IMG/VR virus record: IMGVR_UViG_3300044695_008209
Coordinates: 62,001-126,000 of that record
Length of the DNA stretch: 64,000 nt
DNA from: a virus
Direction: 5' to 3' (one strand)
Numbering within the stretch: the stretch's first letter is position 1; each line of letters begins with the position of its first letter. This document shows, one piece after another, positions 1,684-58,750 of the stretch. The notes under the pieces were generated by a model, which searched no databases, was not told the DNA's origin, and was given only the letters and a program-made list of their open reading frames with translations. The translations under genes and the position numbers were made by a program.

Positions 1684-2571
1684 ATGGGCCTCCTCCTGCG
1701 CGCCTTCGAGAAGCGGGCGACGGGCAGTGTTCTGCCGGTCGCGCCGCCCGTGGCTGCGTCTGCGCCAGCCACGCTGCCCGCACCGGCGGCAGGCGTGCAG
1801 TGGCATCCGGACTGGGCACCAGAGGGCGGGTGGCAGGAGCCCGGGAACGCGAAGGGCTGGCGCCGCCCGGCGCAGGAGGGGAGGCGGAAGGAACTCTTCC
1901 TCTGGGACCAATGGAAGAAGGGCGGGCAGACTCCGGAGCTGTCGGCGCCCCTCCTGAAGTCCCTGCGGCCGGTGATCTACTCGCAGGGCGTCCGCGCCTG
2001 GGCAGACCGGGTTCCGGTGCAGACTCCCGTGCTCGAGGCCAAGGCAGTGCAGCTGACCCTCGGCGCGCTGGAGTCGTACAACCCGGTGAAGGCCCAGCTG
2101 AACACGCACGTCACGAACACGCTGAAGGGCATGCACCGCTTCGCGACCACGCGCCAGAACATGACCCGGCTGACCGAGGCACGCCGGCGTCTGGTTGGAC
2201 CATACCAGCGGGCCCTCTCGCGCCTGAAGGACAAGCTCGAGCGAGAGCCCACCGTCCTTGAGCTCGCCGACGAGATGAAGGAGTCGCCCGCCAACGTGGA
2301 GAAGCTCCTGCTGGAGATGAAGGACGATCTCATGTCCTCTGGCGCGATGGATGACCCCTTCCTCGACGAGACCTCGGAGTCGCGCCTCAAGCTCCAGCTC
2401 ATCCGGTACAGCCTCACCCCCGACGAGAACACGGTCCTGGACTACCTCATGGGCACGGGCGGTAGGCCGAAGATCGAGAGCACGGGGGCCATCGCGAAGC
2501 GCGAGGGTTGGTCCGACTCTCGCGTCTCCCAGATCAAGAACGCGATCATGCGCAAGTGGAAGGGCAAGTGA
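1684..2571 (+). CDS. Sigma-70-like RNA polymerase specificity factor
   Basis: A 295-residue protein. Residues 15-40 are a Pro/Ala-rich tail. Residues 80-165 resemble sigma region 2, with a helix pair around ALESYNPVKAQLNTHV that matches the region 2.2-2.4 pattern (AL..FDP then a KFSTY-like segment). Residues 172-215 resemble region 3 (LEREPTVLELADEM). Residues 232-295 resemble region 4, with a helix-turn-helix ending in REGWSDSRVSQIKNAI. Region 1.1 is absent. It is encoded among virion genes, well away from early-type genes. With a phage RNA polymerase gene at 50319, the natural inference is that it directs that enzyme, although it could redirect the host polymerase instead. The fold call is fairly firm; the partner is inferred. 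Confidence 0.8.
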   Translation: MGLLLRAFEKRATGSVLPVAPPVAASAPATLPAPAAGVQWHPDWAPEGGWQEPGNAKGWRRPAQEGRRKELFLWDQWKKGGQTPELSAPLLKSLRPVIYSQGVRAWADRVPVQTPVLEAKAVQLTLGALESYNPVKAQLNTHVTNTLKGMHRFATTRQNMTRLTEARRRLVGPYQRALSRLKDKLEREPTVLELADEMKESPANVEKLLLEMKDDLMSSGAMDDPFLDETSESRLKLQLIRYSLTPDENTVLDYLMGTGGRPKIESTGAIAKREGWSDSRVSQIKNAIMRKWKGK

Positions 2572-27624: not shown

Positions 27625-27655
27625 CCGGGTTGTACTTACTTATGACACAACCCGG
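27625..27655. repeat. Perfect inverted repeat upstream of the lipoprotein gene
   Basis: CCGGGTTGT and ACAACCCGG form nine-base perfect arms around a 13-base AT-rich spacer, eight bases from the lipoprotein start codon. It could be an operator, an RNA hairpin masking the start, or a weak terminator. Confidence 0.6.
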
Positions 27656-31327: not shown

Positions 31328-31779
31328 TGATTCTCACGGTAGTTGGTAAGGAGTTGCTCGAACCAGTCGCTCGGCAGGACGACGAACTGCTCGCGCAGGT
31401 TGTCCTCGAAGGCGATGCGCATGATGGGGATCTCGTCCCCCTGCGCGGCTGCTGCGATCTTCCGGAGGTCAGCGCGTCGCAGCACGAAGGAGTCCTTCGT
31501 CGTGGTCTTGTCCTCCTCCCGGAGCAGACCCCTGATCTTCACGTCGCCCTTGTCCTTCCCGGCGCCGGAGTTGGCAGTGAGCCTCCCGCCGACGCTGCGG
31601 GCGTTGAACTTCTCCTGGCGACTCGAGCGCCCGCGGGTCGTCTCGCGCTTCGGCAGGCGCTTCTTCTCGTGCGGGTCGCCGAACTGGAAGTCGCACGCCC
31701 TGCAGACGTAGCCACGACCAGCCGGCGCCTCCGACACGTTGATCCGCAGCGTGCACTGCGGGCACATCGGCACTCGCAC
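31324..31779 (-). CDS. Zinc-ribbon PD-(D/E)XK nuclease, Hjc-like
   Basis: A 151-residue protein. Residues 6-29 form a zinc ribbon (CPQC, then CRAC). Residues about 62-140 match a phage endonuclease family with SGAGKDKGDVKIRG (Asp), REEDKTTTKDSFVLRR (Glu/Lys) and a DLRKIAAAA helix, the GD...E-x-K pattern of PD-(D/E)XK resolvase-like enzymes. A structure-selective DNA-cutting role is likely. It overlaps the Cas4-like gene by four bases. Confidence 0.6.
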   Translation of the reverse strand: MRVPMCPQCTLRINVSEAPAGRGYVCRACDFQFGDPHEKKRLPKRETTRGRSSRQEKFNARSVGGRLTANSGAGKDKGDVKIRGLLREEDKTTTKDSFVLRRADLRKIAAAAQGDEIPIMRIAFEDNLREQFVVLPSDWFEQLLTNYRENQ

Positions 31780-32976
31780 TTATGGCACCAACGCCACGTT
31801 CGCTGCGCGGAGGATCTCCTCGGTGAGCTCCCCGATGAGGTCGCACGACACGATGGCCGCGGCCGCCTTGTCCTTGCTCGCCCCGAGGATGAGGCCGCTG
31901 TAGGAGTACGAGTTCCCGTTCTTGTCGATGAGGTCGTACTCCAGGCCGAGGCGGAGGAGGAGCTCCCCCATGTCGATGTCGCAGTCGGCGAACATGTAGT
32001 TGTACTGGCCGGTGTGCCCCTCGTACCCGCCCGCCTTCTGCTTGGTGATCTCCCACTTCTCGACCTTGCCGACGCGCTCCTTGTCGTCGTCGCTGCCCTT
32101 CGTCACCCACGCCATGCGCTGCAGCTCGACGGTGAGGAAGCGGGCGTGCTTCAGCGCCCACCCGCCCGACTCGTGCGTCTGCTTCTCGAAGGCCTGCGCC
32201 TTCAGCTTGTCGCGCACCTGGTTGATGCCGACGAAGCAGGTGAGGTTCGGGTTGCCCTTGGCGTCGGCCCCGAACGCGCTGGTGAGCTTCCGCATCAGCT
32301 TCGTGTTCAGCCCTGCGGGACCGCCCACACGGCTGTCCTTGTCGAAGCCCTGCTCCTCCTCGGCGTCCGTCAGGATGGACCCGAAGGAGTCGAGCGCGAC
32401 GATGTTGAAGTCGCCGCTGCCCACGAGGTCGACCGCGATCTCGAAGGACTCCTCGGCCGTGCTCGGCGGTACGACCACGAAGGTCCCCACCTGCACCTTG
32501 AGGGCCTCGCGCTCCGCCGCCGAGAGGGCCGGCAGGCGGAGCGACTTGCGACGCTGGTCCTCCTGCGCGATCTCGTCGTTCGACAGGGCGACCTTCACGC
32601 CGCAGCTGTGCCCCTGCGTCTTGTCGTAGGGGAGCTCGGTCCCGATGACAGCGATGGCGCACTCCTCGCCGTAGATGCGCTGCTGCCCGCGGATGAGACG
32701 GTTGAGCAGGAAGTTCTTCCCCTCGCCCGGCTTGCCGACGAGCATGGTCATGCCGCCGGCGGGAGCACCGCCGTTGGTCGCGATGTCGAGGTCCGGGATG
32801 CCGAAGGCCAGGCGACGCATCGCCCAGGGCATCGTGTACTCGTCCCCCATCATCACGTGGCCCGGGTACCGACCCTTCAGCGTGGTGACGAGGGTACGCA
32901 GGCGGTCTTGCTTCGCAGAGCGGGGGATCACGGGCTCTGCGCCCGGCTCCTCAGCGCTGGCTTTGCGTCGGGCCAT
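31780..32976 (-). CDS. RecA/UvsX-like recombinase
   Basis: A 398-residue protein. The Walker A is GKPGEGKN at 81-88, with Asn where Ser/Thr is usual. Walker B is NIVALDSFGS (Asp196). There is a DNA-loop-like region around residues 213-240 and FVGINQVRDK as the conserved Asn-Gln motif. It should coat ssDNA and catalyse strand exchange for recombination-dependent replication and repair. Its start lies inside the end of a zinc-ribbon gene (26-base overlap), implying coupled translation. RadA or a DnaB-type ATPase is less likely given the GINQVRD motif and length. Confidence 0.8.
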   Translation of the reverse strand: MARRKASAEEPGAEPVIPRSAKQDRLRTLVTTLKGRYPGHVMMGDEYTMPWAMRRLAFGIPDLDIATNGGAPAGGMTMLVGKPGEGKNFLLNRLIRGQQRIYGEECAIAVIGTELPYDKTQGHSCGVKVALSNDEIAQEDQRRKSLRLPALSAAEREALKVQVGTFVVVPPSTAEESFEIAVDLVGSGDFNIVALDSFGSILTDAEEEQGFDKDSRVGGPAGLNTKLMRKLTSAFGADAKGNPNLTCFVGINQVRDKLKAQAFEKQTHESGGWALKHARFLTVELQRMAWVTKGSDDDKERVGKVEKWEITKQKAGGYEGHTGQYNYMFADCDIDMGELLLRLGLEYDLIDKNGNSYSYSGLILGASKDKAAAAIVSCDLIGELTEEILRAANVALVP

Positions 32977-45006: not shown

Positions 45007-45086
45007 TTAGAGCCCTCCTTGGTTACTCCCCTTATGACCGGGGTATGTTAGGGTCTGCCCCACCTGCCCTCCGTCTGAGGTACCCG
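45007..45086. promoter_or_regulatory. Divergent intergenic region, likely bidirectional promoter
   Basis: This is the only place where the DNA-metabolism strand and the second virion block start back to back. The 80 bases contain CCCC-TTATGAC-CGGGG (a short inverted repeat) and TATGTT at 45044-45049, 43 bases before the + strand start. Both flanking genes have good ribosome sites. A promoter pair is expected here from layout; the exact elements are not proven. Confidence 0.45.
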
Positions 45087-46111: not shown

Positions 46112-46918
46112 ATGGCCGACGGGACTGCAGATCTCGTGCGGCTGCTTGCGGATCCAACCGCATCCCCGCTCGCCCTTATGAGAGCTTTTACGTCCAGATT
46201 CGGGGTCGAGTGGCTCACGTGGGACTACACGGCGCTGCGCATGACGCTCGAGCGGGAGCTCCACGTGCAGGTCTCCCCCCAGACGATGAGCAAGGCCGTC
46301 GGCGGTGCTGCCATCGCGGTGAGCGACACCTTCTGGACAGACTGGGAGCACTTCCACTTCCTGGTCCAGGCGCTGAACGGGCGCATCCCCGACTTCAAGA
46401 ACCACCAGGAGCTGTCCGTTGGCCTGATGATGCGGGCCGTCCTGGTCGCCCAGGCGATCCGGAAGGAACTCGGCAAGCTCGTCGAGACGGTCCCCTTCTC
46501 GGAGGAGGTCGCGCGCTACGTCGCCGCCCAGGCGCTGCAAGCAGGAGTCTGGTACCTGCCTCCTCCGCTGGAGTTCGCCACCCGGCACGCCAGCGGGCTG
46601 AGCTACCGGTGCAAGGACTGCGGCAACACGTCCCCGGTCTTCGTTGACGACGGTCTCTGCGACGTCTGCGTGCACCGCTTCGACACGAGCCAGCTCGGCA
46701 GGTGGACGCCCGACCCGGAAGAGCTCGCGAAGGGCCGCGGGAGCAGCATCGAGTACTTCGAGAAGAATCCGACAGGTCCGATCGTCCGGAGGCTCCAAGA
46801 GTTGCACGACCACCCCGGTCGCACGCTCCAGGAGAACCAGACGGACATCTGCACCGGGAAGATCCTCGCCGCGGTAGAGTACGCACGCCAAGGGCAGTCC
46901 GGGGAGTCCGCGTGGTAG
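46112..46918 (+). CDS. Unknown protein with zinc ribbon
   Basis: A 268-residue protein. The first ~150 residues are helical with several Trp/Phe. Residues 163-190 form a zinc ribbon (YRCKDCGNTSP, then CDVCVHRF; Cys167, 170, 183, 186). The C-terminal segment is polar. It sits two genes before the portal, in tight operon spacing. It may be a head-assembly or packaging accessory, but no family is known to me. Confidence 0.65.
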   Translation: MADGTADLVRLLADPTASPLALMRAFTSRFGVEWLTWDYTALRMTLERELHVQVSPQTMSKAVGGAAIAVSDTFWTDWEHFHFLVQALNGRIPDFKNHQELSVGLMMRAVLVAQAIRKELGKLVETVPFSEEVARYVAAQALQAGVWYLPPPLEFATRHASGLSYRCKDCGNTSPVFVDDGLCDVCVHRFDTSQLGRWTPDPEELAKGRGSSIEYFEKNPTGPIVRRLQELHDHPGRTLQENQTDICTGKILAAVEYARQGQSGESAW

Positions 46919-47514
46919 ACCACCTCATGTACCGAGCCTGCTTCCGCGAGCTGGAGAAGTCCGCTGGGCTGGGGACCCGCGCAGCGGCCTGGGCCGGCGG
47001 GCACGCCGCACAGGTCGGTGGTGCCGTGAAGCACTTCGCTCACGACGTGGGGGATGCCGCACTGGGCACGGTGCGCCCCAGCGCGTGGAAGGCGGGGGTT
47101 CAGGCCGGCAGAGAGGAGATGAAGAAGGGTCCCTTGGCCGCGGGCATGACGGCTCTCATGGTGCCCATGACCGCCGCCGACACGGTGCACACCATGAAGA
47201 CGAAGGTGGACCCCGTCACCGGGCGGCAGATCGGTCTCGGGGAGCGAACTGCCGTCGCCGCGGGACGCATCGGTTCCTCGGTGGCCGGGATGCGCTACAT
47301 GAACGCGCAGAGCGGAGGCTTCTTGCGCGGCATGGGCGTTCAGGCGGGCGGGGCGGTGCTCACCGACGCGGTCACCAGCCGGGTCGGCCGCGCAGCTGAC
47401 AACTTGGCCGCGCGCAAGCCGCCTGCGACAGCGATCGGCGCAGGTGTCGGTACCCCCAACCGCGTCGTGCCTCACCTTGGGGGCGGGACACCCGTCGCTC
47501 GAGGAGTCGTATGA
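46912..47514 (+). CDS. Ala/Gly-rich small virion-block protein
   Basis: A 200-residue protein. The GTG at 46912, with GGGGAG five bases upstream, is preferred over the ATG at 46927, which lacks a site. The N-terminal LEKSAGLG is followed by long Ala/Gly/Val/Met stretches that could insert in or pack against membranes or form head core helices. The stop overlaps the portal start (ATGA), so a scaffold or internal head protein is possible. No family. Confidence 0.6.
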   Translation: MVDHLMYRACFRELEKSAGLGTRAAAWAGGHAAQVGGAVKHFAHDVGDAALGTVRPSAWKAGVQAGREEMKKGPLAAGMTALMVPMTAADTVHTMKTKVDPVTGRQIGLGERTAVAAGRIGSSVAGMRYMNAQSGGFLRGMGVQAGGAVLTDAVTSRVGRAADNLAARKPPATAIGAGVGTPNRVVPHLGGGTPVARGVV

Positions 47515-49622
47515 GCTCCGACCCCACCCGCTTCTCTGGTCGCTCGACTACGGCCTCCTGGACGAGCCGCGGCTACGGCGTGCGGTACCCGTCGCCCTTC
47601 TTCGACGTCGCGCAGCAGTTCCTCCCGGAGAACGTGCACCAGCTGCACCTCTGGTGCCGCTTCTACTTCCTGACGAACCCCGTCATCAACGTCGCCTGTC
47701 AGAAGATGGCGGAGTACCCCGTCACGCCGCTCGTGTGGGAGACCGACGACAGCGAGCTCAAGTCCCTCTACACCAGCCTTGAGGCCCACCTTCGCCTGCG
47801 CCAGTTCCAGGTCGAGATCGGCCTGGACTACAACGTCTACGGAAACGGCTTCGCCAGCGTCTTCTTCCAGTTGGAGAAGTACCTGGTCTGCAAGAACTGC
47901 AAGGAGCGGTACCGCGCCTCGAAGAACCGCAGCCGCTACAAGTGGAAGAACGGGCGCTTCTTCCTCACCTGCGGGAAGTGCCACACGGAGGAGTACGCGG
48001 ACCAGGCCGACACCTACCCGCGGAACGTGCGCGGGGCCCGACTGGTCCGGTGGAACCCCGAGAACGTCGAGATCAAGCACAACGAGGTCACCGGCAACAG
48101 CCGCTACTACTACCGGCTCCCGCGGAGCGTCACGAACGACGTAAGGCTCGGGGACCCTGAGACCATCGAGACCCTCCCCTACCAGTTCCTCGAGGCGGCC
48201 CGCACTGGCAAGGCGCTCCTCTTCCACCCGGACAACTTCTTCCACCTGAAGCGCCCCACCATCGCCCAGAAGGACCAGGGCTGGGGATCGCCGCTGATCT
48301 TCCCGCTCCTCAAGGACGCCTTCTACCTGCAGGTCATGAAGAAGGCGCAGGAGAGCCTCCTTCTTGAGCACGTCGTCCCTCTGCGCATCGTCTTCCCGGG
48401 CCCCACCACAGGGGGGAACGACGGTCCCTTCGGTGCGTACAACCTGACGAACTGGAAGCAGAAGATCGACATCGAGCTGGCCATGTGGAAGCGGGACCAT
48501 AACTACATCCCGATCCTGCCCATGAACATCGGGTTCCAGCAGATCGGCGGGCAGGCCAAGGCGCTCATCCTGCACCAGGAGTTCCGCATCCACGCCGAGC
48601 AGATGCTCGCCGGTGCGGGCATCCCGGTGGAGTTCGTCTACGGCGGCCTCCAGTGGAGCTCCTCGAACACCTCGCTGCGCGCCTTGGAGAACACCTTCCT
48701 CGGCTACAACATCGAGCGCTTCAACCTCACGCGCTTCGTCGTCGACAAGGTCGCTGCCCACATGGGGTGGCCGACGATCCCGTTCCGCTTTGAGAAGTTC
48801 CGCATGGCGGACGACCTCCAGCGCGCGATGTTCTACTTCCAGCTCAACCAGGCGCAGAAGGTCTCGGACCAGCGCCTGTTGGAAGAAGTCGGCGAGGACT
48901 GGGACACCGAGAGCGAGCGCATCGCCGGCGAGCGCGTGAAGCAGATCGACGCGCAGAGGAAGTCGCAGCTGGCGACTGCCGAGATCCAGGGCGCAGCGCT
49001 GCTCCGCACTTCGCGCTACCAGGCCAAGGCCAACGAGCTGACGATGCTCGCGCAGAACAACGCCCAGATGCAGATCCAGCAGGCCCAGGCAGACGCCGGG
49101 ATGCTGGCGCCACCTGGAGCCGACCCGAACGCACAGGCAGCCGGCGGCCCGGCCGCGCCTCCGGCGGGAGCAGCGCCAGGAGCTCCGGGCAGCCCCGGGG
49201 CCGGTGCGCCGCCCGAGGACCCGGCTGCAGCCGGGCCGCCGGCACCCGTAGACCCCAACGCTGCACCCCCTGCCGGGGGACCCGCCATGTACGCCGAGAA
49301 CGCAGGAGCGCCGAACACCTCGGCAGCGCCCGTCGCCATGGCTGGGATGGAGTCGCCCCTGCAGATGGGCCAGGGCGGGATGGACCTCCGGTACGTCGCA
49401 CAGCGCGCGGCGGCCTACCTTCGCACGGTGGAGGCGCAGAACGGCAAGCAGGCGATGTTCCAGGAGCTGCAGAAGCTCCAGATGGAGAACCCGCCCATGT
49501 ACCAGCTCGTGGTGCAGCTCCTGAACGACACCGGATCTGCGGCAGATCCGATGAACGCGGCCAAGTCCCCGACCACGCCTCGCTCGGCAGCACAGCGGGA
49601 CCCCAGCCGGACTGTGGGCTAA
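47511..49622 (+). CDS. Portal protein with inserted zinc ribbon
   Basis: A 703-residue protein. Portal character comes from the helical/beta wing-stem layout: the early NPVINVACQKMAEYPVTPLV and GLDYNVYGNGFASVFFQ segments, then GWGSPLIFPLLKDAFYLQVM, and the AGIPVEFVYGGLQWSSSNTS, then LRALENTFLG core with a long C-terminal helix. Residues 127-157 insert a zinc ribbon (CKNC, then CGKC), rare in portals. The tail (about 520-610) is Pro/Ala/Gly-rich. Portals form the dodecameric ring at the head vertex through which DNA enters and leaves. The terminase is outside the window. Confidence 0.75.
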   Translation: MSSDPTRFSGRSTTASWTSRGYGVRYPSPFFDVAQQFLPENVHQLHLWCRFYFLTNPVINVACQKMAEYPVTPLVWETDDSELKSLYTSLEAHLRLRQFQVEIGLDYNVYGNGFASVFFQLEKYLVCKNCKERYRASKNRSRYKWKNGRFFLTCGKCHTEEYADQADTYPRNVRGARLVRWNPENVEIKHNEVTGNSRYYYRLPRSVTNDVRLGDPETIETLPYQFLEAARTGKALLFHPDNFFHLKRPTIAQKDQGWGSPLIFPLLKDAFYLQVMKKAQESLLLEHVVPLRIVFPGPTTGGNDGPFGAYNLTNWKQKIDIELAMWKRDHNYIPILPMNIGFQQIGGQAKALILHQEFRIHAEQMLAGAGIPVEFVYGGLQWSSSNTSLRALENTFLGYNIERFNLTRFVVDKVAAHMGWPTIPFRFEKFRMADDLQRAMFYFQLNQAQKVSDQRLLEEVGEDWDTESERIAGERVKQIDAQRKSQLATAEIQGAALLRTSRYQAKANELTMLAQNNAQMQIQQAQADAGMLAPPGADPNAQAAGGPAAPPAGAAPGAPGSPGAGAPPEDPAAAGPPAPVDPNAAPPAGGPAMYAENAGAPNTSAAPVAMAGMESPLQMGQGGMDLRYVAQRAAAYLRTVEAQNGKQAMFQELQKLQMENPPMYQLVVQLLNDTGSAADPMNAAKSPTTPRSAAQRDPSRTVG

Positions 49623-50018: not shown

Positions 50019-50125
50019 GCACGGCTACCCTGCCTCTGGGCCTTCATCGAGTTTCCGAAGTCTACGATGAAGGCCATCGCGCCTCCCACGAACGCGAAGA
50101 CCATCATCCATGCCAGTGGACTCAT
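50015..50125 (-). CDS. Single-span membrane micro-protein
   Basis: A 36-residue ORF. The ATG at 50125 follows GGGAG at six bases; an ATG at 50131 would add two residues. Residues 3-24 (PLAWMMVFAFVGGAMAFIVD) are a clear membrane-spanning helix, followed by a basic tail. Third-position bias is strong in this frame and weak in the overlapping 50025-50273 frame over the same bases. It could be a holin-like or pore-type small protein, or a membrane regulator. No lysis cassette is visible beside it. Confidence 0.5.
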   Translation of the reverse strand: MSPLAWMMVFAFVGGAMAFIVDFGNSMKAQRQGSRA

Positions 50126-50273
50126 CAACATCTCCCAGATGCGCCTCGGCGCTCGGTCCTGATACGGCGTTCTCGACGAGCTGCGCAAAAGCGCGTAGCT
50201 CGGTCCCCTGCGGTGCGGTGCTGCGCCTCTGACGGGGCACCTTCGGACGTCCCGTGGTAGATATGTCGGACAC
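50025..50273 (-). CDS. Small basic ORF overlapping the membrane micro-protein
   Basis: An 82-codon frame from GTG (GGAG six bases upstream; another GTG at 50279). The first ~45 residues have good codon bias and a basic Pro/Arg/Gln-rich start, then a helical ELRAFAQLVENAVSG segment. The last ~35 codons have poor bias where the membrane ORF overlaps. Either the two overlap genuinely, or the upstream frame shifts into the downstream one, or the C-terminal part is unselected. Confidence 0.4.
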   Translation of the reverse strand: MSDISTTGRPKVPRQRRSTAPQGTELRAFAQLVENAVSGPSAEAHLGDVDESTGMDDGLRVRGRRDGLHRRLRKLDEGPEAG

Positions 50274-50318
50274 GGTCACCTCCACTTCTCTTATGCCGGA
50301 TAGCGGAGAACTTCTACG

Positions 50319-53300
50319 ATGCCGAACCTGAACCCGGAAGCCGCCTTCGAGAGCCTCAAGGGACAGGTGGCGGCGACGATCCGGGCACAGTTCCCTTTCG
50401 AGGGTGCCACGCGCCGGCTCGAGATCCTGGACGTCCTCTTCGACGAGAAGTCCAACACTGCCGCGGATGCGCACCACATCGACAACCTGGAGGAGCAGCT
50501 CAAGGCACGCACGACGGGCATGACGTGGGGCGTGAAGGTCCGCGGCCACCTGCGCCTCGTGGACAAGGCCTCCGGGCACACCGTCGAAGAGGCGACCGTC
50601 ACCCTGACCAACCTCCCCAAGATCACGCGCCGCTACTCCTACATCATCGACGGGCAGGAGAGGCAGCACGACAGCGTCTTCCGCTCGAAGTCGCGGGCCT
50701 ACCACCGCATCGCGTCGAACGGCGACATCCAGGCACGCTGGAACCTGGCACGCGGCCACGGGTTCGACCTCACGTACGACCCGGTGAAGGGCCGGATGGT
50801 CATGACGATCGGGGACTCGAACATCCCGCTCTACTCCGTGCTCCGCGTCCTCAACGTGGGGGACGCCGCGATGGAGCGGCAGTGGGGGCCCGAGGTGTTC
50901 CGCGACAACGTCAAGGCGGCGAAGCCGGGAGACGTGGACAAGATCTACACGGCGCTGCACCTGCGCATGGCTGACCGGTCTCCCGGCTCTCCGGCGCAGC
51001 GCGCAGAGAAGATCCGCGAGTACTTCGAGCAGGAGACGGAGGTGCTGCCGGACGCGATGAAGGCCGCCTTCGGCAAGGAGTACACCACCGTCAACGGAGA
51101 GAACCTCCTCCTCTCGTCCGGGCGACTCCTCGCCATCCAGAAGGGCCGCCTGAAGGAAGACCCTCCCGCGCACGAGCTCCCGGACGACCGGCAGGCCCTG
51201 TCCGCGAAGTACCTCGCGACGACGGAGGACTTCGTGATCGAGGCTCTTCGCCACCACGAGGCGAGCCTGCGGAAGCAGGTTCACGACCGCATCGACAAGC
51301 CCGAGTACAGCATCACCGACATCATGTCGCCGAACTCCTACGGGCGCGTCGTGCTCTCTCCCTTCCAGCACGCCCAGCGCCCGGAGCAGACCAACCCGCT
51401 GCAGTTCCTCTCCGGGTACATGCGCACGACCATCCGTGGCAAGGAGTTCGGCGGCGTCGGCGGCGAGAAGATCAACCTGGACGTCGAGAAGGAGCTGAAC
51501 CCCACCCACCTCGGGTTCATCGACCCCATCCAGACCCCCGAGGGGGAGGACACGGGCATCGCGCTCAACCTGCCGCTCGGGATCTCCCTGACGCGCGGGA
51601 CTGCCCGCCCCGGCACGAAGAGCCGCGCATCTCCGGGGCAGGAGATCCGCACGAAGGTCTACGACACCAAGGCCGGGCAGCTCGTGCTGGCGACGCCGGC
51701 GGAGCTCGAGCACGAGATCGTCGCGTACCCGGACCAGGTGCGCTGGACAGCCGGCCGTCCTACTCCAATCGCGAACGAGGTCATCTGCTACGACGAGCAG
51801 CGGAAGACCTCGAAGCGCCCGTGGTCCAAGGTGCGGTACGTGCTCCCCTCCGCGAAGGCGCTCCTCTCCTTCAGCGCGAACCTCATCCCCTTCCTGCAGA
51901 ACAACAACGGCAACCGGGCGATGATGGCGGCCAAGCAGCAGGAGCAGGCACTCGCGCTGGTACACCGCGAGGCCCCGCTCGTGCAGGTCAAGACGGACGG
52001 CACCAGCACCTTCGAGCACGTCGTCGGGTCCTTCGTCACGCACACGGCCCCTGAGGCAGGGGTGGTGAAGCACGTTGAGCCGGGAGCCATCCACCTCCAG
52101 ACACAGTCGGGGCTGGTGAAGATCCCCACCTACAACCACTTCCCCTTGAACGGAGGGAAGAACTCGCTGCACTCCATCCCGGTGGTGAAGGCGGGGCAGT
52201 CGGTGGAGAAGGGGGCCCTCCTCGCGGACTCGAACTACACGAAGGACGGGGCCCTCGCTCTCGGGGCGAACCTCCGCGTGGCGTACGTGCCTTGGAAGGG
52301 CCTGACCTTCGAGGACGGCATCGTCGTGTCCGAGAGCGCCGCGAAGCGCATGTCGTCCGACCACATGCACGCGCTCGAGATCACGGTCTACGCGGGCATG
52401 GTCGGAGCGGAGCCCGGCGCGATGGCGAGGTGGCGCGACTATGCGACGCCGGCGCGCGGCACGTCCGAGCACGTCAGCAAGCTGGACGACCGCGGGATCA
52501 TCCGCGAGGGGACAGTCGTCCACACGGGCGACGTCCTCGTCGCCGTTCTCAGCCCGAAGCAGCCGAATGAGTCTGACTTGGCCGCGGGGCGCATCCACAA
52601 GACGCTGGCGAAGTCGTACCGGGACGCCTCCCTCGTCTGGGACCACGACTACTCTGGCAAGGTCGTGCGCGTGCTCGTCTCGGAGGCGATGAACCGGAAG
52701 CACGTCACGGTCCACATCGCGACGGAACAGCCGCTGGTGGTCGGAGACAAGCTGGCTGGTCGACACGGCAACAAGGGCATCATCAGCCGCATCGTGCCGG
52801 ACCACGAGATGCCCCACACGGCTGACGGCGCTCCGGCAGACCTGCTGCTCAACCCCGCCGGGGTACCGAGCCGCATGAACATCGGTCAGGTCCTGGAGAC
52901 CGCGGCCTCGAAGATCGCCCAGAAGACGGGCAAGCCCTACGTCGTGGAGAACTTCGTCTCGGGGGTCGACTACTCCGCGAAGGTCATGCAGGAGATGCAG
53001 AAACACGGGCTGACGGACACGGAGGAGATGTTCGACCCCGTGACCAAGCGGTCCATCGGCAAGATCATGGTCGGCCCGCAGTACATGCTCAAGCTCCACC
53101 ACCAGGTGGAGAAGAAGGCGACCGCGCGCTCGATGGAGACCGGGTACACCCACACTGGTGAGGCCCCGAAGGGGTCCGGCATCCCTGGCGGTGGCCAGAA
53201 GATGGACATGCTCACGACGTACGCGATGCTCGCGCACGGGGCCAACCACAACCTCCGCGAGGCGTACACCTTCAAGAGCGACGGGGACCAGAACGCCGCC

Positions 53301-56300
53301 TGGGCCGCCGTGATCACGGGCAACCCGTTGCCGCCGCCGCAGCCCACGCGTGGGATGTCGCACTTCCAGAACTACCTGCGCGCCCTCGGCGTGAACGTGG
53401 AGAAGCGGAAGGACGACTACCACCTCTCCCCGCTGACGGACCTGCACCTGCTCGGCGACGAGAAGCGTGGGTTCCGCGGCATCTCGAACGGAGAGATCAA
53501 GCTGCCCGAGAAGCTCTCCGTGGCGCGTGGAGCGCGCACGGTCGAAGAGCACGGCGGCCTGTTCGACCCGAAGGTCACTGGCGGCATCCAGGGCAAGTTC
53601 TGGAGCCACGTCACCCTGGCGGAGCGGATGCCGAGCCCGCTCTTCGAGCCTGCCATCCAGACCCTGACGGGCCTGACCAAGAACCAGTTCAACAGTATGG
53701 TGGGTGAGAAGGGCTACGTCGACGGGAAGTCCGGGTTCCACACCATCGTCGAGCGGCTGGCCGCCCTCGACGTCGACACCGAGCTGAAGAAGGCCCAAGC
53801 TGAGGTCGGGAAGTCGAGCCGCGCCACGCTGAGCCGCTCGATGAAGAAGGTCCGCTACCTCGAGGCCCTCAAGGCGAGCGGGCTCACCCCCCTTGAGGCG
53901 TACACGAACAAGTACCTGCCCGTCCTGCCGCCGTCGGTGCGACGCGTGTCGATCGGACTCGATGGAACACAGGTTCTCGACGATCGGAACCCGCTGTACC
54001 TGGCGGTCGGCCACGCGAACGGGATCCTCAAGGCGGCGAAGCCCTCCACCCCCCACGAGGACATGCAGAAGGCGCGCGCGTCCCTCTACAGCAGCATCCG
54101 CTCCCTGAAGATGACCGGCATGACGACCAGCCCCGGCTCCGGCAAGCCGCGGCACATGCAGGGCCTGATGGAGCTCCTATCCGGCAAGACCGAGGACCAC
54201 GGCGCCCCCAAGGAGAGCTTCTTCCAGGAGGGCGTGCTCGCGCGTCGCCAGGACCTGTCCGGGCGCTCGACGATCGTGCCGGAGCCGGCCCTCGGTCTCG
54301 ACCAAGTCGGGGTGCCCCGCCAGATCGCCATGGAGATGTACAAGCCCTTCGTCGTGCGTGAGCTCGTGCGAGCGGGCAAGACTCCCATCGACGCGCTGAA
54401 GTGGGCGACCGAGAAGAAGGACCACCCGCAGGTGATGGACGCGCTCGAGCGCGCGGTGTCCGAGCGGCCTGTGTTCCTGAAGCGGGACCCGTCCCTGCAC
54501 AAGTTCAGCATCATGGCCTTCCACCCGAAGATCGTGGACGGCAGCGCCATCAAGATCCACCCGCTGGTCACCGGAGGCTTCAACGCCGACTTCGACGGGG
54601 ACACGATGGCCCTCTACGTCCCGGTGTCTGCCGAGGCGGTGGAGGAGGCGCACAAGATGCTCCCCTCGAAGAACCTGTTCTCGCCCACCCACTTCGGCCT
54701 GCTTCCCGTCCCCGGGCAGGACTCGCTCCTGGGCATCTACCAGGCCACGAAATGGGGCACCGAGGTTCCCGTTCCCGCGGGCACCACTGCCGAGCGCGCG
54801 ATGCAGATGATGCACGACGGGAAGCTCAAGCCGACCGACGTGATCACCATCGACGGGAAGAAGACGACCGCGGGGCGCCTGTCTCTCGCCAGGTTGCTTC
54901 CGACTGAGATGCAGGGGAACGAGAAGCTCCTGCACGACTCGGCCTTTCGCCTCAACAAGGATGGCGTCGAGAAGATGCTCTCCACGGTGGCGCGGGAGCA
55001 CGACAAGGGGTTCTCCGGGACGGTCGACGGGTGGAAGGACCTCGGGAACCACCTGTCCTACCTGAACGGCAGCTCCTTCTCCATCAACGACTTCCACGAC
55101 GGGGTCGCAATGCGCGACCGCGTCCTGAAGCCCTACGCCGAGCAGGAGAAGAAGCTCCACGCCACCCCCATGTCCCCGCGAAAGCGGGATCAGGAGATCG
55201 TCAAGCTCTACCAGGGGGCGCAGGCAGAGCTGAAGTCCGTCGGCAAGGTCAGGTACGACGCAGGCAGCAACCGCGTCTGGGAGTGGGCGCAGTCCGGGGC
55301 CCGCGGCAACTGGAACCAGTTTGCGCAGCTGACCCTGGCGCCCGTCCTCGTCGAGGACTTCGCCCGACGTACCGTCCCTGTGCCCATCACCAAGTCCTTC
55401 GGGGAGGGGCTCTCCGTCTCGGAGTACTGGGCGTCGATGCACGGAGCTCGTAAGGGCACGCTTGACCGTGCGCAGGGGACCCGTGAGCCCGGCGCCGTCC
55501 AGAAGGACATCGTCAACACGACCATGGGGATCCAGGTCACGGCGGAGGACTGCGGCTCGACCGAGGGCAAGCAGATGTCCCTGGGCCACAACGACATCGT
55601 CGGGCGCTTCCTCGCGCACTCCGTGAAGATCGGGACGGTCGACGTCCACGCGGGCGAGCTCATTACCCCCGCGCTCGTCTCGCAGGCGAGGAACGCGGGC
55701 GTCGTCGAGTTCGTCGTGCGCTCTCCCCTCTTCTGCAGGATGGGGAAGGGGGTCTGCGCGAAGTGCTACGGGCACAACGAGCGCGGAGGCCTGCACGCGA
55801 TCGGCACGAACCTCGGGGTCATCGCGGGGCAGGCGCTCAGCGAGCCCATCACGCAGCTCGCGATGAAGACCTTCCACACAGGCGGTGTTTCCAGCGCCGG
55901 CCAGTCCAGCGCCGTGGACTCCTTCAAGCGGGTGAAGCAGCTCTTCATGGTCCCCGACAAGCTGCCGGACAAGGCGGTGCTCGCCGTCATCGGGGGCAAG
56001 GTCGGGAAGATCTCCGCAGACGCACGCGGTGGGTTCACGGTCGACATCGAGGGCAAGCCGCACCGCGTCGTCACGGGGCACCTCCTCGAGAACGTCAAGA
56101 CGGGGGCTACCGTGCACCGCGGTGACCCGATCTCCACGGGCCCCATCGACCCGCACGAGCTCCTGGAGCACACCAAGAGCATCGGGCGGACGCGGAACTA
56201 CATCACGGACGAGGCCACTGCCGCGTACCAAGGCACGGTTCGGCAGCGGAACGTGGAGATGGTGGTCCGTGGGATGACGAACCTGACCGAGGTCCACAAC

Positions 56301-56630
56301 GCGCCTCCTGGAAGTCCCTGGCACCGCGGGGATATGGCACCGCTCTCTGCCGTCGACGAGCACAACGCCATCGCGACTGGCGAAGGCCACGAGACCATCT
56401 CGCATACCCCCACTCTTCGGGCGATGACGCTCGTGCCACTGTCCGGAACCGAGGACTGGATGGCACGGCTCAACTATCAGCGCCTCAAGGAGACGTATAC
56501 TGAGGGTGCTGCCCAGGGATGGAAGTCCAACATCCACGAGCACCCGATCCCCGGCCTTGCCCACGGGGCAGAGTTCGGGCTACATCCACCAAAGACCCGC
56601 GCACCACCGCCTTCTGGAGCACACCGATGA
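50319..56630 (+). CDS. Single-chain RNA polymerase, fused beta and beta' subunits
   Basis: A 2103-residue protein. Beta part, about 1-1010: YIIDGQERQHDSVF and QTNPLQFLSGYMR with PIQTPEGEDTG (rifampicin-pocket region). Then come YVPWKGLTFEDGIVVSES, GDKLAGRHGNKGI (809-821) and PSRMNIGQVLE. Beta' part, about 1055-2103: ISNGEIKLPEKLS and GGLFDPKVTGG, RRQDLSGRSTIV (1309-1320), and the catalytic loop NADFDGD with Asp1424, 1426 and 1428. These are followed by zinc site 2 (Cys1745, 1806, 1813, 1816) and the bridge-helix/trigger-loop segment AGQALSEPITQLAMKTFHTGG (1836-1856). The beta' N-terminal zinc domain is missing. E. coli beta plus beta' total about 2750 residues, so this is a compact version. 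Template-dependent transcription is expected. No alpha or omega gene is visible; phiKZ-type phage enzymes work without alpha. Confidence 0.93.
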   Translation: MPNLNPEAAFESLKGQVAATIRAQFPFEGATRRLEILDVLFDEKSNTAADAHHIDNLEEQLKARTTGMTWGVKVRGHLRLVDKASGHTVEEATVTLTNLPKITRRYSYIIDGQERQHDSVFRSKSRAYHRIASNGDIQARWNLARGHGFDLTYDPVKGRMVMTIGDSNIPLYSVLRVLNVGDAAMERQWGPEVFRDNVKAAKPGDVDKIYTALHLRMADRSPGSPAQRAEKIREYFEQETEVLPDAMKAAFGKEYTTVNGENLLLSSGRLLAIQKGRLKEDPPAHELPDDRQALSAKYLATTEDFVIEALRHHEASLRKQVHDRIDKPEYSITDIMSPNSYGRVVLSPFQHAQRPEQTNPLQFLSGYMRTTIRGKEFGGVGGEKINLDVEKELNPTHLGFIDPIQTPEGEDTGIALNLPLGISLTRGTARPGTKSRASPGQEIRTKVYDTKAGQLVLATPAELEHEIVAYPDQVRWTAGRPTPIANEVICYDEQRKTSKRPWSKVRYVLPSAKALLSFSANLIPFLQNNNGNRAMMAAKQQEQALALVHREAPLVQVKTDGTSTFEHVVGSFVTHTAPEAGVVKHVEPGAIHLQTQSGLVKIPTYNHFPLNGGKNSLHSIPVVKAGQSVEKGALLADSNYTKDGALALGANLRVAYVPWKGLTFEDGIVVSESAAKRMSSDHMHALEITVYAGMVGAEPGAMARWRDYATPARGTSEHVSKLDDRGIIREGTVVHTGDVLVAVLSPKQPNESDLAAGRIHKTLAKSYRDASLVWDHDYSGKVVRVLVSEAMNRKHVTVHIATEQPLVVGDKLAGRHGNKGIISRIVPDHEMPHTADGAPADLLLNPAGVPSRMNIGQVLETAASKIAQKTGKPYVVENFVSGVDYSAKVMQEMQKHGLTDTEEMFDPVTKRSIGKIMVGPQYMLKLHHQVEKKATARSMETGYTHTGEAPKGSGIPGGGQKMDMLTTYAMLAHGANHNLREAYTFKSDGDQNAAWAAVITGNPLPPPQPTRGMSHFQNYLRALGVNVEKRKDDYHLSPLTDLHLLGDEKRGFRGISNGEIKLPEKLSVARGARTVEEHGGLFDPKVTGGIQGKFWSHVTLAERMPSPLFEPAIQTLTGLTKNQFNSMVGEKGYVDGKSGFHTIVERLAALDVDTELKKAQAEVGKSSRATLSRSMKKVRYLEALKASGLTPLEAYTNKYLPVLPPSVRRVSIGLDGTQVLDDRNPLYLAVGHANGILKAAKPSTPHEDMQKARASLYSSIRSLKMTGMTTSPGSGKPRHMQGLMELLSGKTEDHGAPKESFFQEGVLARRQDLSGRSTIVPEPALGLDQVGVPRQIAMEMYKPFVVRELVRAGKTPIDALKWATEKKDHPQVMDALERAVSERPVFLKRDPSLHKFSIMAFHPKIVDGSAIKIHPLVTGGFNADFDGDTMALYVPVSAEAVEEAHKMLPSKNLFSPTHFGLLPVPGQDSLLGIYQATKWGTEVPVPAGTTAERAMQMMHDGKLKPTDVITIDGKKTTAGRLSLARLLPTEMQGNEKLLHDSAFRLNKDGVEKMLSTVAREHDKGFSGTVDGWKDLGNHLSYLNGSSFSINDFHDGVAMRDRVLKPYAEQEKKLHATPMSPRKRDQEIVKLYQGAQAELKSVGKVRYDAGSNRVWEWAQSGARGNWNQFAQLTLAPVLVEDFARRTVPVPITKSFGEGLSVSEYWASMHGARKGTLDRAQGTREPGAVQKDIVNTTMGIQVTAEDCGSTEGKQMSLGHNDIVGRFLAHSVKIGTVDVHAGELITPALVSQARNAGVVEFVVRSPLFCRMGKGVCAKCYGHNERGGLHAIGTNLGVIAGQALSEPITQLAMKTFHTGGVSSAGQSSAVDSFKRVKQLFMVPDKLPDKAVLAVIGGKVGKISADARGGFTVDIEGKPHRVVTGHLLENVKTGATVHRGDPISTGPIDPHELLEHTKSIGRTRNYITDEATAAYQGTVRQRNVEMVVRGMTNLTEVHNAPPGSPWHRGDMAPLSAVDEHNAIATGEGHETISHTPTLRAMTLVPLSGTEDWMARLNYQRLKETYTEGAAQGWKSNIHEHPIPGLAHGAEFGLHPPKTRAPPPSGAHR

Positions 56631-58222: not shown

Positions 58223-58750
58223 ATGCCCGGGCCGCACCTTCCATCCATCCGGCAGCGCGTACATCGACGCCTCAACCCGGGTCGACTGGCGCAGGACGGC
58301 TTGCCGGAACTCCTCGCTCAGGTGCTCTACGACGAGCTCCTCGAAAACCCGGGACCGCAGGGCGCCCCAGGTACCCCCGGTGCTCCAGGAGTAGCCGGTG
58401 ACCCTGGACCACAGGGGGATCCTGGGCCTCAAGGGGACCCCGGGCCGCAAGGAGATCCTGGTACCCCCGGAGGGACTGACCCCGCGCTCGAGATGGAGCT
58501 GGCCTTCAAGGTGGCCAACGCGAGCAACTTCAAGAAGCCGACCTACAACCTTCAGGGGCAGCTGACGGTGGTGGACATCTGGGAGACTCCGGCGATGCTG
58601 GTGAAGCTGTTCAGCAAGGCGCTGGCGTACACGGACGGGAAGCTGACCACGTCGACGCTGACACGCATCTCGGACGGCGCTACGCTTGTCCGGACGCTCA
58701 CGTACGCTGCTGAGAAGTGGGACGGTACGACCTCGGTATACACCCCATGA
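58223..58750 (+). CDS. Collagen-like repeat protein
   Basis: A 175-residue protein. Residues 44-84 form about 13 Gly-X-Y triplets ([19 protein letters not shown]), a collagen-like stalk that trimerises in many phage fibres. The N-terminus is basic and the C-terminal ~90 residues are a small beta domain. It lies directly before the large fibre-like gene. A role as fibre or connector is inferred. Confidence 0.7.

Follow-up and report, generated by a model that had tools for sequence, protein, structure and literature searches.

The window analyzed here comprises 64,000 bases (62,001-126,000) of the 182,777-base IMG/VR virus record IMGVR_UViG_3300044695_008209, whose source is a tailed phage, its genome being about 183 kilobases (kb) long. 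At 50319-56630 it carries a gene for an RNA polymerase (RNAP) in which the counterparts of the bacterial beta and beta' subunits form one continuous chain of 2103 amino acids (aa). We propose that the product is probably an alpha-less, sigma-dependent virion RNAP that operates without phage-encoded alpha and omega subunits; its packaging, its dependence on sigma and its use of phage promoters are inferred from homologs and from a recurrent promoter-like element, as described below.

Both large subunits in one chain

According to the Pfam search, domains of both large subunits follow one another in the chain: Rpb2 domain 3 (residues 356-418), Rpb2 domain 6 (residues 579-939, with the best Pfam E-value, 1e-68) and then Rpb1 domains 2 (1309-1448), 3 and 5 (1697-1872). 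NCBIfam detects rpoB (E 2e-103) and rpoC (E 7e-139) in the same chain, both far under the cut-offs. An earlier note on this DNA had claimed a natural single-chain phage enzyme with beta and beta' cores and had proposed a Pfam search for Rpb1 and Rpb2 domains as its check; the ordered matches of both families within one frame bear the claim out. The gene and the parts discussed below are the following:

50319-56630, plus strand: single-chain beta-beta' RNAP gene, 2103 aa, one uninterrupted ATG frame
50319-53417, plus strand: beta-like half, residues 1 to about 1033, aligned to Escherichia coli RpoB
53418-56627, plus strand: beta'-like half, residues about 1034 to 2103, N-terminal zinc finger absent
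52743-52778, plus strand: GDKLAGRHGNKG, beta double-psi barrel, residues 809-820; K811 and K819 correspond to E. coli K1065 and K1073
54582-54602, plus strand: NADFDGD, catalytic Mg-binding motif, residues 1422-1428; D1424/D1426/D1428 correspond to E. coli beta' D460/D462/D464
55551-55766, plus strand: zinc site 2 cysteines; C1745, C1806, C1813 and C1816 correspond to E. coli C814/C888/C895/C898
55827-55886, plus strand: trigger-loop segment GQALSEPITQLAMKTFHTGG, residues 1837-1856; M1849, K1850 and H1853 correspond to E. coli M932, R933 and H936

The correspondence with E. coli residues was derived from a 46-row alignment. In addition to the barrel lysines, R1106 and H1237 of E. coli beta are matched by R852 and H928 of the phage polymerase, while in beta' the arginines R346, R352 and R425 are matched by R1310, R1316 and R1389, and the bridge-helix residue R780 by R1711. 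The trigger-loop R933 is replaced by K1850. With the DxDxD motif, the barrel lysines, the bridge helix, the trigger loop and zinc site 2 all recognizable in its sequence, the protein is assigned to the two-barrel RNAPs with a beta-beta' core. The catalytic aspartates, whose loss would have spoken against the earlier note, are intact, and its description of the cores as nearly complete holds for the catalytic core and fails elsewhere. In the same alignment the N-terminal zinc finger of beta' (E. coli 65-89) is deleted with all four of its cysteines, the E. coli inserts SI1 and SI2 of beta and SI3 of beta' (944-1129) are absent, and the last 32 residues of E. coli beta' have no counterpart. Phage two-barrel enzymes are generally reduced; the missing zinc finger detracts from the status of a complete bacterial RNAP, not from that of an RNAP.

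The two halves meet around residue 1033, where beta is shortened by about 4 residues and beta' by about 14 and the chains are continuous. An AlphaFold prediction for residues 560-1480 with 27 family members has a mean predicted local distance difference test score (pLDDT) of 82.9 and a predicted template modelling score of 0.72, and the solved folds closest to the model are bacterial beta subunits. Over the joint, the pLDDT is about 84-92 and the chain is drawn as a beta hairpin with no disordered linker. In our best reading, the contact that the C-terminal end of beta usually makes with the beginning of beta' has been turned into a covalent, structured connection. We regard post-translational cleavage of the 2103-aa product into a beta and a beta' part, by which the active enzyme would not be a single chain, as very unlikely. 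It is true that the chain of the Arash-type phages described below functions despite one or two breaks elsewhere, and continuity is thus not essential; however, cleavage accords poorly both with a confidently predicted, ordered hairpin that lacks a linker and with the retention of the fusion in at least 92 other contigs.

Distribution and history of the fused chain

Profile searches of IMG/VR revealed at least 99 loci, on at least 92 distinct other contigs, in which one frame runs over beta, the beta' active site and the C-terminal part of beta'; the scan gave at least 381 relatives, and the count of 92 fused contigs is a lower bound. The frame is complete in 85 of these contigs, typically with 2020-2200 aa, the G+C content of the fused loci measured ranges from about 39 to 68%, and the NADFDGD motif is found in 85 of the 92 sequences counted. 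This recurrence excludes chance and an assembly or frameshift artefact joining two genes, the latter being a finding that the earlier note had named as a possible refutation. It also overturns the suggestion that such an enzyme is uncommon: the fused frame is the usual state of a widespread phage lineage and looks rare only among cultured phages. Among 50,697 cultured-phage records no single-chain form was found, and just three records cover more than 80% of the chain, all of them Vibrio phages with the polymerase in pieces.

The other origin that has to be considered is the capture of a fused host rpoBC gene of the Helicobacter or Wolbachia type. The top NCBIfam model is indeed the fused Helicobacter-type beta/beta' PRK09603, yet it is matched with 550 bits where the cut-off is 5372, and the second fused model reaches 486 bits against 4632, so that neither equivalog cut-off is attained. 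Scores so far under the cut-offs indicate a divergent relative, not a host copy. In trees of 46 and 25 rows, a fully supported branch separates the phage enzymes from six or five bacterial rows; its support is 100/100 in the second tree, whose bacterial rows represent five lineages, with neither Helicobacter nor Wolbachia among them. Given also that the frame recurs in the contigs counted above and that a portal gene lies upstream in 17 of 17 relatives compared, we reject host capture on the NCBIfam scores and on a tree of this composition, and consider that an artefact and a captured host fusion together retain a negligible probability.

Among the relatives, only two loci appear to be split at the classical junction between beta and beta', and both cases can be explained away. 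In L009 the split results from a one-base deletion relative to L006, a twin that is otherwise 99.9% identical. In L080 an in-frame TGA occurs at expected Trp positions, and the chain is fused if UGA is read as Trp. The record of the latter (G011; 205,518 bases, G+C 35%) has five in-frame TGA codons in the polymerase gene, several of them at Trp positions of the family, and one more in its sigma homolog, which suggests that this phage has recoded UGA to Trp. The polymerase frame of L091 is likewise interrupted by one TGA, either an error or a true break, at a site that does not resemble Trp.

Several of the longer frames contain intein-like in-frame insertions, located after NADF(D/N)GD in six loci, inside the QTPE motif of beta in two and in the trigger loop in one, with two insertions apiece in L005 and L079. 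We count these positions in favor of the enzyme proposed here; they are of the kind at which inteins sit in essential enzymes. The 2973-aa frame of L005 (9986-18907) has one insertion directly behind the catalytic NADFDGD and another within the trigger loop (AMK|C...HN|TFHTGG). Three related intein-bearing polymerases (L026, L079 and L087) have NADFNGD, with Asn in place of the second catalytic Asp, directly ahead of Gly and the intein, and the NG pair in this motif is prone to deamidation; such polymerases may be dead, may be converted after translation or may have some other explanation.

Breaks at other places characterize the nearest cultured relatives, Salmonella phage Arash (OQ632216; PMC10585845) and Vibrio phages D69, D148 and D181, the latter three covering 96% of the chain. 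They have the same beta-beta' fusion point and the portal gene upstream, and Arash also has homologous sigma and helicase genes; gp206 and gp216 of Arash are about 31% and 26% identical to the window enzyme, respectively. The difference is that in these phages beta' is split after the active site: in Arash and D69, beta and beta' past the active site form one protein of about 1525 aa, and the remaining beta' (606-609 aa) is encoded by a second gene, about 5 kb downstream in Arash and under 1 kb downstream in D69, whereas the window enzyme is unsplit. In a further group the chain is broken again about 80-100 residues after the GGLFD motif of beta', with the beta-beta' joint still within the first gene wherever GGLFD was found. 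In D181 (L004:9459-10407) the polymerase is also interrupted between query residues 527 and 529; the intervening stretch, which contains a homing-endonuclease gene and is probably an intron, is lacking in D69.

The broken forms constitute one clade in the better tree, whereas the fused forms do not group reliably, with a support of 18 in the quick tree and 15% of bootstraps in the better one. Therefore, the simplest reading of these sequence trees, in which the root among the phages is left unplaced, is that the fusion arose once, long ago, and that new breaks came later. The break in Arash falls close to where cyanobacterial rpoC1 ends and rpoC2 begins (profile positions 550/619 and 5/1230, respectively), and phiKZ-type phages have this site in common with it (PMC7598289). 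The two-gene enzymes of Cobetia phage Carin-5 and Yersinia phage GN1 lie on a very long branch, with half of the alignment columns empty, and we draw no conclusion from them. It is tempting, though tentative, to envisage a tailed-phage lineage descended from an ancestor that fused beta to beta', in which a minimal bacterial-type holoenzyme of one chain and one sigma is packaged and serves its own class of promoters. Phages of the Arash type would afterwards have split the chain again elsewhere, among other places at the site in beta' that cyanobacteria and phiKZ-type phages also use.

Sigma homolog, possible packaging and candidate promoters

The following features of the window bear on the way in which the polymerase may be used:

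1684-2571, plus strand: sigma-factor homolog (P0002), 295 aa, likely promoter-specificity partner; Sigma70_r3 E 1e-4
27639-27644, minus strand: CATAAG promoter-like element
31779-31784, minus strand: CATAAG promoter-like element
45031-45036, minus strand: CATAAG promoter-like element
46175-46180, minus strand: CATAAG promoter-like element
47511-49622, plus strand: portal protein gene, conserved upstream neighbour; 30% identical to Arash portal gp204, E 1e-80
50025-50273, minus strand: putative 82-aa gene (GTG start) downstream of the element at 50290
50290-50295, minus strand: CATAAG promoter-like element, divergent from the polymerase gene, about 24-40 bases upstream of its start; conserved in L005, L006, L008 and L010

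The product of 1684-2571, which the earlier note had regarded as a likely partner of the polymerase, turns out to be a homolog of the virion sigma gp10 of Arash (31% identity, E 2e-21). Gp10 is annotated as sigma and has Sigma70 region 3 above the cut-off (9e-9) and region 2 weakly. Homologs of this sigma were found in 21 of 26 related records, and four of the five without one are records of only 100-131 kb. On the other hand, a six-frame search of the 182,777-base record for alpha and omega genes (PF01193, PF01000, PF01192) found none, while 13-14 control genomes were matched; part of the genome may be lacking from the record, and subunits could also be taken from the host. The polymerase is the only RNAP match in the record. 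The portal gene lies just upstream of it in the window, in Arash and in all relatives compared, and the record and Arash have in common terminase, portal, major capsid, tail, hydrolase, sigma and helicase genes.

Mass spectrometry of Arash virions ranked the polymerase gp206 first among all proteins, with 3516 spectra, compared to 1210 for the C-terminal part of beta' (gp216), 467 for sigma gp10, 1148 for helicase gp217, 877 for the portal and 1333 for the capsid protein (PMC10585845). From these data we calculated 2.3 spectra per residue for gp206, 2.0 for gp216, 2.0 for sigma, 2.4 for the helicase, 1.5 for the portal and 4.3 for the capsid protein. By analogy with the Arash enzyme and its sigma, the fused polymerase may also be packaged in the virion.

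The candidate promoter is the hexamer CATAAG, which occurs at 37 sites in the record, all of them intergenic and all on the minus strand, while an order-2 model expects 2 and 1 (about 3). Intergenic DNA makes up 12.8% of the record according to gene calls by a simple script of our own rather than a standard gene finder, and the probability of all 37 sites being intergenic is about 1e-33 on these calls. The plus strand of the record, which carries the virion genes, has no CATAAG. When the sites are aligned relative to the C, AA is found at -20/-19, G at -2 and TG at +11/+12; if CATAAG is a -10 hexamer, this agrees with a T-1 G+1 start and with an A-rich element that resembles a -35 site. Elements of the same class occur in a near relative (G001, 88% RNAP identity) and in a distant one (G003, 46%). 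The Arash version, GGTATAAG, has TG at the same +11/+12 place and lies on the minus strand at 21 of 22 sites, with G at -7 in 16 of 22 and T in 1 of 22. A k-mer search for a late plus-strand promoter motif gave only reverse complements of the early element. By eye, a host-like TTGACC-N17-CAGAAT can be seen outside the window, at about 146,319-146,380 of the record (G000:C1), just upstream of the gene that precedes the major capsid gene; it is possibly a late promoter read by the host RNAP.

These observations can be combined into the following scenario. One polypeptide would fold into both large subunits of the crab claw and would form a two-protein holoenzyme with the sigma encoded at 1684-2571. 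Polymerase and sigma would be made late, alongside the virion proteins, and packaged; the holoenzyme would then accompany the DNA into the cell and begin to transcribe the early genes on the minus strand from CATAAG promoters, with an A-rich element near -31, GG(T)CATAAG as the -10 element and a T-1 G+1 start, and the late genes might be read by the host RNAP. We thus infer that CATAAG is recognized by the phage polymerase with its sigma, and sigma-dependent initiation at phage promoters appears likely, rather than promoter-independent transcription.

Several points weigh against this scenario. The sigma homolog itself is under the Pfam cut-off (Sigma70_r3 E 1e-4). The authors of the Arash study state that the enzymes may be carry-over, and several of the 116 proteins detected in its virions are clearly non-structural (PMC10585845); moreover, the virion evidence comes from a phage whose polymerase consists of two pieces. 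Within the window, CATAAG is not significant (5 sites seen, 3.6 expected from dinucleotide shuffles), hence the signal comes from the early-gene region outside it. The k-mer search gave no promoter element in two relatives (G002 and G019), and the TATAAG of Arash with its preceding TGG also resembles an extended -10 site for the host RNAP.

Alternatively, the polymerase could be a non-virion enzyme made during infection for the middle or late genes, like YonO or the phiKZ non-virion RNAP (nvRNAP), with the early genes read by the host RNAP. Its gene is on the plus strand among the virion genes and is therefore probably expressed late, and the plus strand lacks the CATAAG element altogether, as this alternative would have it. 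Nonetheless, late expression beside the portal also suits a packaged protein, the Arash homolog is the protein most detected in the virion, and the record encodes a single RNAP. Furthermore, the minus-strand element of Arash rarely has T at -7, where host sigma70 wants it, and if the host-like sequence in one plus-strand upstream region is a promoter, the late genes would be those read by the host enzyme. We consider a non-virion role rather unlikely.

Still less probable, in our opinion, is that the sigma homolog redirects the host RNAP to the CATAAG promoters and that the fused polymerase serves some different purpose. It is common for sigma factors of phages to act on the host RNAP, and the sigma homology of the 1684-2571 product is demonstrated. 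Such a division of labor is at odds with the co-occurrence of sigma and phage RNAP across the lineage, in the 21 of 26 records mentioned above, and with the presence of both proteins in the Arash virion at similar numbers of spectra per residue.

Relation to known polymerases

There are precedents for phage polymerases of the multisubunit type, for virion RNAPs and for single-chain polymerases with two barrels. Cellular transcription cores consist of several polypeptides assembled on alpha, and crAss-like gp66 is a virion RNAP. This enzyme, YonO, gp96/gp64 of phage P23-45 and QDE-1 resemble the window enzyme in having both double-psi barrels in one chain, and P23-45 gp96 is also a virion RNAP (PMC10770324). 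However, these proteins exhibit almost no similarity to beta and beta' beyond the catalytic motifs (PMC5467207, PMC10770324), whereas in the window enzyme the core, the trigger loop and zinc site 2 are recognizable by sequence, and a sigma is present. The polymerases of phiKZ/AR9-type jumbo phages, i.e. the virion RNAP (vRNAP) and nvRNAP, are also two-barrel enzymes without alpha and omega, one form of which is found in the virion, and their beta', like that of Arash, is divided beyond the barrel (PMC7598289). They comprise several polypeptides per enzyme and two enzymes per phage, in contrast to one chain and one enzyme here. The rpoBC fusions of Helicobacter and Wolbachia (PRK09603, PRK14844) likewise join beta to beta' in one chain; these are full-size host enzymes (profile lengths 2890 and 2839), while the phage protein scores about a tenth of the cut-offs and lacks the beta' zinc finger.

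A possible counterpart in the literature is the mReC clade (PMC7481178), which consists of tailed phages from metagenomes; their beta and beta' cores are bacterial-like and form a branch separate from all bacteria, as the phage enzymes do in our trees. It was mined from IMG/VR by criteria that a fused protein would pass, and metagenome 3300017989 supplied two of its three named representatives as well as the fused L076. On the other hand, the paper reports no fusion of its own enzymes and treats beta and beta' as subunits. The mReC capsid family PF07068 was found in none of 27 records (this record and 26 relatives), a comparison to be read beside the finding of capsids in only 8 of 97 mReC contigs by the mReC authors (PMC7481178). 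The PF03237 terminase is absent from this record and present in 13 of the 26 relatives, in 5 of them over the cut-off. The fused family may coincide or overlap with mReC; the comparison covered the published description, the capsid and terminase families and the metagenome names.

A near-complete bacterial catalytic core in one chain, accompanied by a sigma and normal in a widespread lineage, is undescribed in the literature that we found, in a search that left out most subscription papers and preprints. If our proposal is true, a one-chain core with a trigger loop, a bridge helix and a cognate sigma would indicate how little is needed for promoter-specific, regulated transcription, and such a natural core could be expressed from one gene. 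It would form a bridge between the multisubunit enzymes of hosts and the very divergent single-chain enzymes of phages, such as YonO and crAss gp66, and may give an identity to the published, biochemically unexplained deep branch of mReC. The CATAAG element makes the hypothesis of early transcription testable, and the cultured relatives, Arash and the Vibrio phages, give access to the two-piece version.

With respect to the remaining content of the DNA, no tRNA genes were found in the window, and a scan of the genome contigs for a clue to the host matched only two bacterial rpoBC operons. Shortly past the polymerase gene, at 58223-58750 on the plus strand, a 175-aa protein with a collagen-like repeat is encoded, which resembles the collagen segments of tail fibres.

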